A DNA stretch of 64,000 nucleotides from assembly GCA_029962745.1 (NCBI GenBank), contig JAPZVO010000055.1:62001-126000 (forward strand), written 5' to 3'. Positions 22,601 to 34,600 of the stretch are shown piece after piece. A model generated the notes under the pieces. The model was not told where the DNA came from and did no database searches. It saw only the letters and a program-made list of their open reading frames with translations. The position numbers were made by a program, and so were the translations under genes. This DNA is from Echinometra lucunter (lineage: Eukaryota > Echinodermata > Echinoidea > Camarodonta > Echinometridae). The stretch's first letter is position 1; every line of letters begins with the position of its first letter.

Positions 22601-25600
22601 AAGGGTTCACCATTCCTAGCTGATTACCTCACCTTAAACTGCCATTCAGTGGGTGGTCTCCTCTTTAGAAAAGAGATACCGAAGTGGGAACTTCGTTAGT
22701 TTTCAGATACATATTTCATCCCCATCGTTTTCTTTAAAAATCAAGAATCCAATTTAAAAATTGTTCTCATATTAGCGCAGAAGATGTTAAGCCATTTATC
22801 AGAGCACAGGGATCAATTTGAAGTCTAACATCCCACATATCCCATCTCATGAATCGTTGTTGAATGAAATATTGCGCTTTGTTTACTTCTACTATACATT
22901 TTAGCTTGGGGTTGTGGTGTTTGCACGAGTAATAAACATAATAATAATACCTTTCTGCTTCCTCCTGGTCGTGTATAATTCCTTTACTTTTGCTAAATAG
23001 TCACCCTGGGCTTACCGTTTTCCAACCCTCAAACAATAGACTCAACGAGATCCGCGCGAAAAAAACCCCAGAATTTTGATGATGTATGATAATGCCAGTT
23101 TTCGCCATTCACAGTCATAATTTAGAGCGCATCTTTTGTGCTTTATTATGAATTGCCCCCATAGAGCCTATCATTCGAAATACGTGACTTCTTTTTTTTT
23201 TTGGGGGGGGGGACATGCCCTGTTGTGTCCCCCTACCCCCCCCCCCTGGATTGACGCCCATGGATGGCACTGTTGCTTGACATTTCATGCACCTAATAAC
23301 ACGGCCCCTTACAGTACATCGTCAATAGCTGGGCTCATTAAATTAGGCCACTGAGATGGCGAACATGGTGTAACGAAGTGACACTCAAACATCACTCTCC
23401 TTCCTGTCCTCACATTGCTGTCAATATGCCTATAGCACTTCATTTATTTGATGTGCGATAAAAGAGTAATGTAGATAAAATGCCTTGCTCAAGGGCATAA
23501 GTGCCGTGCTGGGGATCGAGCCCCGACCCTCGCGTCTCCAGTCAAGCGCCTTTAACCACTGGATCACGGCACATCCATGGCATCTATTGATTATATGTAC
23601 GATTATTTGTTCGTGGTATGTACGCAACACAAAAACCACTTTGAATTCACCTGCAAGTTACTGGGAAACAGATGAAGCAACGAACTAACAAGTGGACGCA
23701 CTTTAACTCATTTATATCACAGACCACGGCCAAGGCTCATTATGAGACTGCTTTAAACGATACCAAGACAAAGTTCCTGGAAGGCATCAAAGAGGTATTT
23801 ATATTTAATCCAATTATGCAACAGGGTATGGAGTTTTTCAATTTTGAAAAGGTGTGATTTAAAGTGACAAGTTTTGGCAACAAGATACAGGTTTTATTCT
23901 AACTGAAAAAATGTGATTTGAAATCATTTCATACATTTGTGCATGGCACACATACACACACACACACCCTCACACATACACACATGGATTATAATGGAAA
24001 TACCCACATGAGAGTCTACTCGAGGTAGCTCCCCGCCCCCTCCCCCCTCCCCCTCCCTCTCCCGGGTATACCAACCCCGGGTTGACTAAGGAATGTACAT
24101 TTTACGTATGTATATTAGTAGCGTCATTGTACACGATGACTACCTCTTATGTTCTGCAATTTTCAATTTCAGATTCAGGGGGGTTGATTTTTGTTTAAAT
24201 TTTTCTCACCCAGCCACAAAAATGAGAAGAGTACAGTGTCGGGATAGATGTGAGGGGGTCACACGATGGATGATAAACAGCAAGGAACTCATACGCACCA
24301 AAAACCCAATTCGCTGAAATCTCGTTTCACGGAATCCCCAAAATGACCCTTGTGACTTATGAAAAGTGACAATTTTGCTTTTCATGTTTGCTTACTCATG
24401 CATGATGACTCAATGGATCAATCTTTCACAGAAAAGTTGGTCGATAAATGTAGGAACACTCCTGCCAAGTTATTTTCTCAAAATCTTACTTCTCGTTAAA
24501 AAGTTGAGCCATTTTGATTAAGGGGTAGTTACTTTTTGTTGTATTTATATTAGGTACCATTACACTACTACTGCTGCATCACTACCGGACCTATACCATA
24601 CCACGACCTCTACTACATCTAATACTACTACTCTTACTCCTCCTCCTCCTCTTCCTACTACTACTACTGCTGCTACTGCTACTACTACTGCTACTACTAC
24701 TACTACTACTACTGCTACTGCTACTGCTACTACTACTGCTACTGCTACTACTACTACTGCTGCTACTGCTACTACTACTACTGCTACTGCTACTGCTACT
24801 ACTATTGCTACTGCTACTGCTACTGCTACTGCTACTACTACATGTACTACTACTGCTACTGCTACTGCTACTACTACTACTACTATTACTACTACTACTA
24901 CTGCTACTACTGCTACTACTACTACTACTACTGCTGCTGCTGCTGCTACTGCTACTACTACTGCTACTGCTGCTACTACTACTACTACTACTACTACTAC
25001 TACTACTACTACTACTACTACCACCACCACTACTACTACTACTACTACTACTACTACTACTACTACTACTACTACTACTACTACTATTACTACCGCATGT
25101 TTAATTCCTTCTTCCACCTCGGCTCATTTTCTTGTCGTCCTCTTTCCTTCTTCCGCTCTTCCCCTCCTCCCACTCTTATGGGCCTAATATATTGAGTCTA
25201 GGAGGCTGCCAATATGTGCAAAGGAAGAGAACACACATCAATAAAAAAAAATATTGGCAGTATTCTAAAATTGCTTTTAATCAGGTATGCGGGAAAGAGG
25301 TGCCATACATGGACCCCAAAGTACTCGATCGCGAGCTAGAGGACGTCAAATCACGGACAGAGAGGACCTTCAAAGACTACCCCAAAGTCGGAAGCCAAGC
25401 GATGAACGAGGAATACCTAGGGAAGCTATCCAATTTCATGATGGAAACGTGTGAAGAGTACAAACAAATGAATAGCAACAAGGCCAACATCTTCACCAAA
25501 GCTATTGCTCGCATAGCATATTACGGGGTGTACACCTTCTCTCATTTTAAGTCGGAGGCAAGATTTGTATTTTCTCTGTGATGTTATTTTCTTCAATTTC

Positions 25601-31600: not shown

Positions 31601-34600
31601 TAAGGCTAAGGCTTTCATCTTGCGTTTTTTCTATCCGTTTGTGTCACGGGCAATGTTGAAGCAGGCAAGGCTTGCATAGCATTATTTCGTTGGTTTTATT
31701 AACATGATAAGGCATATAAAAGGTACAAATAATAAGACTGAAAAGTTTTAAGTTTAAACAACCGCAACGCCATGGATTCTTTTGCATTACATTATCTAAA
31801 CATGTTTAATGGGATTGTTCATTTTGTGACATTATAATGTTCAGATTCAGAAGGCACGGGATCATAGGCGCGTGCATGGCTGATCAATGGCGAAAACGTA
31901 AATAGGGAAAGAGAAAAAAGATGGGGATCGGCCAAGGGGGATCGGATTGTTGCAAGTATACCCTCACACCAATCGACTTCCTTTTTCTTTGGCATTTCAT
32001 TCACATATTGTGAACAGAAAGACATAACCCATCTAGCAAAATAACTGGGGCCCATACATCAAGGGTTAAATCTGGTCAATAACTGGGTTTCATTTGAGTT
32101 ATGATATGGGTATATACGGCACATGGATATCATGGAGCCCACTGTGCAGTTTGCACCGTGGGCACCATCTGGCTCCCAATATATATATATATATATATAT
32201 ATAGAGAGAGAGAGAGAGAGAGAGAGAGAGAGAGAGAGAGAGAGAAAACAAAGAGGTAAAAATATTTTTTAAACGCAATTGTCTTGCGGTGTTTTTATTT
32301 TGACCTCTTTGTTTGCTATCTGTCTCAGCACACCGACGCAGAACTTTCTTGATTTGTTTACGATTGTTGCGTCATCTTAATTTGCATATTATTGAACTTG
32401 TTGATTGCGCAACTATTCATGTTTTCTTTCCTTTGCGAGGTCATTTCCTATATAGCGCTCACGTTGAGCGTGTTTTTTTTTTCTGCATCCTAACTTATCA
32501 CGAGTCATCTTAATTTGCATATCATTTTTTTTAAATTGCGCGACAATTCATTTCTTCTTTCCTTTTCTGTTTGTGGCATCAGTTCCTAGCGCTCTAATCA
32601 GGCGTCCAGCTTATGTATTTTTTTCTTGGCAACTAGTGCGTCTTCTTGATTACTTGCATTAGATTGTTTATTTTCAGTTCACTTTGATAAAGGTCTTTGA
32701 CCGATACGTTAAACGTTAGTTAATTTCTTCGTCTTGCGGTGTTTTCATTTTTACCTCTTTGCTACATATATATATATATATATATATACACACACACACA
32801 CACATATGTGTTTAGTTAGGTGTGGGTGTGTGTGAGTGTGTGTGTATATATACATATAGTGAAAGAAAATTGAGAATGAAACTGATGACGTAGCTCTAGA
32901 TCACAATGATCCTTTTATTTCATTGACAAGCTTTCGGCCCAATAACACGATTTCTTATGACATATGAAAGTGTTTTACTAAATTATCAGTGTTGTATCCG
33001 AGGCCGGCTCAGCCGAGACCGAGACCGAGACATGGTTGTCCGAGACCGAGATCGAGACCGAGACACAGGCATTCCGAGACCGGACCGAGACATGGCTATC
33101 TGAGACCGAGACCGAGACCGAGACCACTAAAAAATGTACATTTTTGCGTGTGTTTAAATTTCACCTGCTTAATTTGCTTTGACCACTTTGGGGTCTTTAT
33201 CTAGACATTTAATTGTTCACTAAAGTATTTGAGCCATGTATATTTCTGGATTCTCCCCCTGATTTTTTTTTTTTTTTTTTTTTTTTTGAAAACTGAATCA
33301 TTTGAATATGAATTACCGAGTCTAGCAAATTAGCAAAAACAATCATAAGTCAAGACATCAAGTCATCAACAGACTAATTAAGTAAGTTAACAAGGTTCTG
33401 AAGCAACTAAACCAGCTCCAGGCAGAATTATTCGTGTTGGCATAATTCACGCAAGACCCAAGCAGAAGGGTTACAAAGTACACACTACTAACAAATACAC
33501 CATACACCGCCATTCATGTAAAATACAACTTGAGCAAACGCCCTATTTATTGTGCCGGTGTGATAGGTGTGATAGTCGATATGTTCCGGGTTCCGCAGGA
33601 ACGAAATGGCTAGTCGATTCGTTCCCCGGAACCAAACGACTAGTTGATTCGTTCCAGCGGAACCAGGCGTCTGATACTACTTTTGGCCGATATATTACGA
33701 AAGCCGCCGTTTGGTTCCGAATTTTGCACAGGGGAGACATTCCACAACCCCCAAAACTTGCCGAAGTCTTCCGATTCGCCCGTGGGATCAACTCGGAAGT
33801 GTCGAGGGGATGCAAAACTGAAAAAAGAGATATTTCATGCATCAAATACTAGTAGGCCCTACCTGAAATGCATTTTGTTAATGGGTGGGTTTTGAGTTTC
33901 GTGATTGATAATGGGGTGCATTATTTTGTGAGCGGAAAATCAAATAAATGATTAGGCCTAACTGTTAGTCTTATTAATTAATTCCATGTCGAATCGCATG
34001 AAGATTTTAAGATGCATTCCAACACAAACACATCTGTTATCCATCATCATCATTATTAACATCATTATATCATTATTATCTTGAATGTTGGGTTGAAAAA
34101 AAAAACATGATATTTGCATAAATGAATATTACAATGACATTTATAATCATCAATTTCATACATCAAAACAATCTTTTACAATAAGCAATTCAAACTATAT
34201 TTGAGAATAATGCTACGTCATACGCGAGTGCGCGTATGACAAAGTCCCCGCAATGTACTTGCATTAAACTTCACAACTTCACTTCGTATTCATCACATAT
34301 CTCAATATCTGTACAAACTTACATTCTTCAAGACTATTCATCTTTGGAATAATTCTATATTCTACGGAATTCTGATAATTGATTTCATCATGAATCTCAT
34401 TTGGATCAAATATTGGAATTAATTGAAGAAATATCGGAGTAGCTAACTCAGCTAGTTTACGTACACACCGGGCGTACACCTAGCACCTACCTACAGTACA
34501 GCAGTGCAGTGCGAACTTAACTCTGTATACAGTACAGGTAAGCGACCAAACATACAGCGCCGTGTATAAATGAATGAGAGAGACTGGATCGGCTCGTTAC

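Follow-up and report, generated by a model that had tools for sequence, protein, structure and literature searches.

The 64,000-base window analysed here, bases 62001-126000 of the 128,909-base contig C1772 in the 743 Mb, 2266-contig genome assembly of the sea urchin Echinometra lucunter, carries on its plus strand a gene that is, by its motifs and exon structure, a fast-evolving atlastin paralogue. The sequence supports a tandem duplication of the exon pair that encodes its stalk, and a second gene, on contig C2, repeats the arrangement. Judged from the two genes together, the doubled stalk exons are a genuine and old feature that both loci have conserved. The likeliest reading, at about even odds, is that splicing joins both stalk units one after the other in a single mRNA encoding a double stalk.

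Two stalk units in one atlastin gene

The first stalk unit consists of exon 9a (23723..23794; helix 1, 24 amino acids (aa)) and exon 10a (25285..25557; helices 2-3 plus juxtamembrane segment, 91 aa), and the second of exon 9b (28270..28344; helix 1, 25 aa) and exon 10b (31389..31664; helices 2-3 plus juxtamembrane segment, 92 aa). Each of the four is preceded by AG, has a length divisible by three, is free of stop codons and joins in phase 0. The preliminary description had placed four open, phase 0, spliceable stalk exons at these positions, and this holds with one refinement: the donors after 10a and 10b (gcaaga and gcaagg) are GC rather than GT. All other donors of the gene are GT, and its acceptors are AG throughout. 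Joins from exon 8 to the transmembrane (TM) exon through 9a-10a, 9b-10b, all four exons, 9a-10b, 9b-10a or none of them are stop-free in both genes. The predicted single-unit products of the window gene measure 574 aa (unit a) or 576 aa (unit b), and the predicted serial products 691 aa for the window gene and 711 aa for the C2 gene.

Both units resemble atlastin stalks. Against a profile built from 17 canonical atlastin stalks, units a and b score 42.8 and 54.5 bits in the window gene and 50.8 and 51.7 bits in the paralogue. AlphaFold2 models exons 10a and 10b as helical at low confidence (mean predicted local distance difference test scores of 54.0 and 58.8), with a third helix, likewise of low confidence, at residues 64-89 of 10a and at 67-80 and 82-88 of 10b. 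Residue N440 of ATL1 aligns with the N of 'NKANIF' in 10a, where the window 10b has D (numbering counted from R77). Because this segment aligns in 10a and 10b, each unit has its own juxtamembrane segment after helices 2-3; PMC10954664 describes the helix between bundle and membrane as essential for fusion. The best match of the serial model among solved structures is Atlastin-3 (5vgr, E 2.3e-100, residues 4-445), and the GTPase motifs GKS, TTG, DSQG and RDW are intact.

The paralogue, gene B, lies on the minus strand of C2 from 41,026,991 to 41,011,593, with exons 9a (41,018,811-41,018,740), 10a (41,015,876-41,015,613), 9b (41,014,636-41,014,559) and 10b (41,013,067-41,012,792) preceding its TM exon in the same order, with the same stalk exon joints and with both GC donors kept. 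Exon length differences between the genes all preserve the frame, and the 13 exons are stop-free in either gene. The tandem duplication proposed in the preliminary description thus rests on firmer ground, as a second gene has the same order. The alternative raised there, a separate gene copy as the source of the 28-31 kb pair, is rejected: no GTPase or TM-exon match lies between the pairs, and the paralogue has the identical order. Duplication of one locus by the assembly, or a haplotig, is likewise ruled out, the window and C2 loci being ~18% diverged in alignable introns. Because a paralogue at this divergence has the same order and GC donors, the arrangement is not an assembly artefact. A comparison of the rest of the 128,909-base contig with 70 kb of C2 (E 1e-15) returned scattered repeats only and left the neighbouring gene A unmatched.

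Gene A, which adjoins gene B, is a canonical atlastin with a single stalk: one helix-1 exon, and helices 2-3 together with the hairpin in one further exon. Over 500 aa it is 92.4% identical to a protein of Lytechinus pictus (P0031), 87.2% to one of Diadema setosum (P0012) and 72.1% to one of Patiria miniata (P0021), identities that suggest a sea urchin near Lytechinus but distinct from it. The two genes stand head to tail on the minus strand at C2 41.012-41.052 Mb, ~25 kb apart, gene B being the fast-evolving member. A genome search with the GBP family yielded 11 exon matches, distributed over C2 (genes A and B), C1772 and C15; the C15 gene was taken as a guanylate-binding protein because stalk and TM exons match there only at weak E-values (local tblastn). 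A search with the TM exon gave 5 matches at E up to 10, the significant ones being the window itself and gene B only, and a DNA search with exons 2-3 found the window gene and gene B only.

Age and constraint of the stalk units

Exons 9 and 10 differ in how their copies group. Of the informative sites in the last 60 nucleotides (nt) of exon 9, 12 group by copy and 0 by locus, whereas over the first 222 nt of exon 10 the grouping follows locus at 10 sites, copy at 2 and a crosswise pattern at 1 (Fisher p 6.7e-5 between the exons). Grouping of the exon 9 sites by copy indicates that the pair was duplicated before the window gene and gene B split. Over codons 28-74, 10a matches 10b at 138 of 141 sites within the C2 gene and at 126 within the window gene, against 122 to 125 in comparisons between genes. 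Grouping of the exon 10 core by locus is the pattern that gene conversion would leave. The simplest account of the site patterns would be one pair duplication before the gene split, followed by conversion between 10a and 10b within each gene. Between the two genes exon 9a is identical at 68/72 nt and exon 9b at 63/75 aligned nt (differences of 4/72 and 12/75; Fisher p 0.06, not significant).

The ratio of nonsynonymous to synonymous divergence (dN/dS) between the window gene and gene B is 0.44 for exons 1-8, 0.50 for 9a+10a, 0.59 for 9b+10b and 0.74 for the TM exon. A neutral simulation without conversion took its rates (17.6% substitutions and 0.039 indels per base) from 20 collinear matches covering 5152 aligned intron bases, after two 10a/10b cross matches and non-collinear matches had been dropped. 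Single exons stayed open at frequencies of 0.16 (9a), 0.008 (10a), 0.12 (9b) and 0.006 (10b), so that 9a or 9b open alone would be unremarkable; all four stayed open in 0 of 20,000 runs.

These measurements bear on whether just one unit is in use and the other is a relic held open by gene conversion or recency, which we consider unlikely. The cores of exon 10 are alike within each locus (only 3/141 sites differ in codons 28-74 at C2), and conversion from a used copy could therefore keep an unused copy open; exon 9b, with dN of 0.20 above dS of 0.10, also suits a relic. Yet exon 9 and the exon 10 tails show no such homogenisation, and they are nevertheless open, with intact splice sites, in both genes. 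The dN/dS of 9b+10b is near that of 9a+10a and of exons 1-8, and the simulation, within its conversion-free design, did not once keep the four exons open.

Improbable too is the reading in which the arrangement yields no product because decay or lack of transcription affects one or both of the genes (window and C2). It would fit the lack of a close protein relative, query coverage reaching at most 67% among the matches listed (120 of 1909 and 120 of 1940), as well as the missing C-terminal tail part of the window gene, its 25 kb intron with retrotransposon pieces and the fast evolution of the TM exon. It sits poorly with the intact GTPase motifs, the constraint on exons 1-8 and length differences that are all in frame across 13 exons stop-free in each gene.

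Serial or alternative use of the units

The stalk unit (the helix 1 exon plus the exon for helices 2-3 and the juxtamembrane helix) was duplicated in tandem before the window gene and C2 gene split. If the gene is transcribed and both units enter one mRNA, the protein would run from the GTPase domain through bundle a and its juxtamembrane segment, then through bundle b and the juxtamembrane segment of that unit, to the transmembrane hairpin. The stalk would then be two consecutive three-helix bundles. A three-helix bundle begins and ends on opposite faces, which allows chaining of the kind seen in spectrin. Bundle a could make the usual swing between its own and the partner's GTPase domain, and bundle b could lengthen the lever and bridge a wider gap before fusion. 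We give equal weight for and against the proposal of a longer, jointed fusion lever, in which a single GTPase domain would drive two serial bundles, both equipped with a juxtamembrane helix.

Full serial inclusion is stop-free in both genes, and with every joint in phase 0 the reading frame poses no obstacle to it. AT-AC splice sites are absent, and the introns around the stalk units measure at least 797 bases. In a pairing test run without a shuffle control, no exact complementary 13-mer was found between candidate docking and selector introns of the C2 gene, and complementary 8-mers common to both genes numbered only 1, 3 and 4. Flank conservation per 100 positions is similar for stalk exons and others upstream (62-71 versus 58-80) and downstream (64-83 versus 54-78). 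The helix-1 segment is 24 aa long in all 187 of 187 motif matches from a motif search in 202 homologues. In the window and C2 genes, respectively, 9a encodes 24 aa in both, 9b 25 and 26, 10a 91 and 88, and 10b 92 in both; lengths thus vary in 10a and 9b and are fixed in 9a and 10b, which places the changes where a linker between bundles would be. Frame, splice class, intron length, intron pairing, flanks and joint lengths lean towards serial inclusion, with no positive sign of exclusivity.

Other observations weigh against a serial double stalk. GC donors such as those after 10a and 10b are a weak class linked to alternative splicing in human genes, according to PMC7242645, and tandem exon duplication often accompanies mutually exclusive splicing (PMC6071210). 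Of the 26 flanks measured, the one that follows 10b has the highest conservation (83/100). In a serial protein the hydrophobic tail of 10a would sit in the middle of the stalk; in the C2 gene the tail of 10b is hydrophobic enough (peak hydropathy 1.77) that it could itself enter the membrane. Nor is length constant in exon 8 (22 and 19 aa), which adjoins the joint supposed to be rigid. Finally, over the 49 codons of 9a+9b dN (0.127) exceeds dS (0.085), so exon 9 alone shows no sign of purifying selection.

Several of these features would suit mutually exclusive or optional units, in which each mRNA carries just one of the two units, or unit b is inserted optionally, and one gene makes atlastins with different stalks; we regard this as possible, though doubtful. 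Every single-unit and mixed form is open in both genes, and the units are near-equal in length and alike in phase, as in exclusive clusters. The two versions of helix 1 are far apart in sequence (window 9a and 9b are identical at 11/24 aa), a difference that swapping could exploit. The GC donors agree with regulated splicing, for which PMC7242645 gives a precedent in let-2, and both the link that PMC6071210 draws in general between duplicated exons and exclusive splicing and the conserved flank after 10b point the same way. The three coercive mechanisms counted in PMC5740500, however, are all absent here; across its 629 human clusters the paper reports U2/U12 incompatibility in 0.79%, short introns in 9% and lengths indivisible by three in 60%. 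Conserved intron pairing was also not found in the uncontrolled pairing test, 9b at 25 and 26 aa departs from the uniform 24 aa of the joint whose place it would take, and the GC donors may be inherited from the unit before duplication.

The preliminary description had proposed either exclusive or serial use. Both forms are open and stand as candidates, the balance of frame, splice, intron, flank and length tests falling on the serial side. Use of 10a or 10b as a last exon is a minor option: reading past their GC donors meets stops within a few codons, and AATAAA or ATTAAA occurs within 600 bases of 10a once in each gene (at 401 in the window, at 537 on C2) and after 10b not at all.

Rarity and comparison with known systems

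Homologues were 202 different proteins drawn from the listed matches given above, and together with three models they make 205 sequences. One stalk and one GTPase profile match were found in 193; the other counts of stalks and GTPase domains were 2 and 2 (4 sequences), 1 and 2 (2), 0 and 2 (2), 0 and 3 (1) and, in fragments, 3 and 3 (1). Two stalks on one GTPase domain occur among the 205 only in the serial models of the window gene and gene B, both constructed predictions; among the matches listed, none of the 202 homologues has this form. No listed protein is therefore so predicted, and the models do not imply that a serial protein is produced. A search with region 340-640 found no relative in 3016 candidates; its reach is small, because canonical atlastins failed to score in it as well. 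A literature search for an atlastin with duplicated stalk exons found no title on the topic, most subscription journals lying outside its coverage.

Animal atlastins (ATL1-3, Drosophila atlastin and gene A) share with the two genes the GTPase domain, exon joints 1-8 and 9, the three-helix bundle and the transmembrane hairpin, but have one stalk unit instead of two. In gene A a single exon carries helices 2-3, the hairpin and the start of the tail, parts that GC-AG introns separate in the window gene and gene B. The two genes further have an extra segment before the hairpin, and the window copy is without the coding part of the tail. Tandem or fused atlastin genes, such as those of ticks and a pseudoscorpion (for example P0003, P0121, P0122), also predict more than one stalk per protein; in these a second GTPase domain comes with the second stalk (2 and 2), unlike the two stalks on one GTPase domain here. 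Mutually exclusive clusters, such as Dscam and the human clusters in PMC5740500, likewise consist of tandem homologous exons of like length and phase, whereas here the unit is two exons, the counted coercive mechanisms are absent and exclusivity is only a candidate.

Serial three-helix repeats of the spectrin type are chainable through opposite ends in the same manner; spectrin is an unrelated family and the parallel is geometric only.

Current fusion models, in PMC10954664 and PMC12312388, have one bundle of fixed length pass nucleotide state to the membrane. A natural two-bundle atlastin, were it to exist, would permit tests of stalk length, of what the juxtamembrane helix does and of the distance bridged, through comparison of natural single- and double-unit forms, and it would be a case of a rigid lever domain duplicated within a fusion protein. 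Should the b unit also be optional, stalk length would be tuned by splicing in this gene.

Remaining exons and surrounding sequence

The GTPase domain and its joint to the stalk are encoded on the plus strand by eight exons assigned by gene model. Exon 1 (10417..10620), numbered from the start codon and with a donor only, has the P-loop GAFRKGKS and a GBP domain match (PF02263, 39.1 bits). Exon 2 (13985..14176) holds the TTG of the switch region, exon 3 (14521..14625) the G3 motif DSQG (DTQG in the paralogue) and exon 5 (17163..17255) the RDW motif. Exons 4 (16193..16306), 6 (17931..18069, ending in phase 1) and 7 (18943..19070) encode further parts of the domain, and exon 8 (21837..21902) the joint between domain and stalk.

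The TM exon (56492..56827) ends at a stop codon (56828) or at a GTTAGT donor (56810). It has two hydrophobic stretches, with hydropathy peaks of 3.17 and 2.58 in the window gene and 2.46 and 2.44 in the C2 gene, consistent with a transmembrane hairpin. Its first half, tried as a remnant of a third stalk, scores no better than shuffles. An additional exon past the GTTAGT site, possible in both genes, was not found in either. Gene B carries a coding part for the C-terminal tail, which lies within a 57-nt alignment gap in the window gene, and the amphipathic tail that marks the family was not found there; 13 bases of gene B's tail (CCATTTGGAATTC) occur at window position 56544, upstream of the hairpin.

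The intron between 10b and the TM exon spans 24,827 bases in the window gene, against 797 in the C2 gene. At 42854-45170 it contains pieces of a non-LTR-like retrotransposon, with an endonuclease domain and a reverse transcriptase in two adjoining open stretches. Long trinucleotide (ACT-like) repeats lie at 24623-25100, between 9a and 10a, and 28800-28910, between 9b and 10b. A repeat that also lies in gene B's intron, at up to 91% identity and in both orientations, occurs at 50242-50463, 53542-53990 and 55101-55362.

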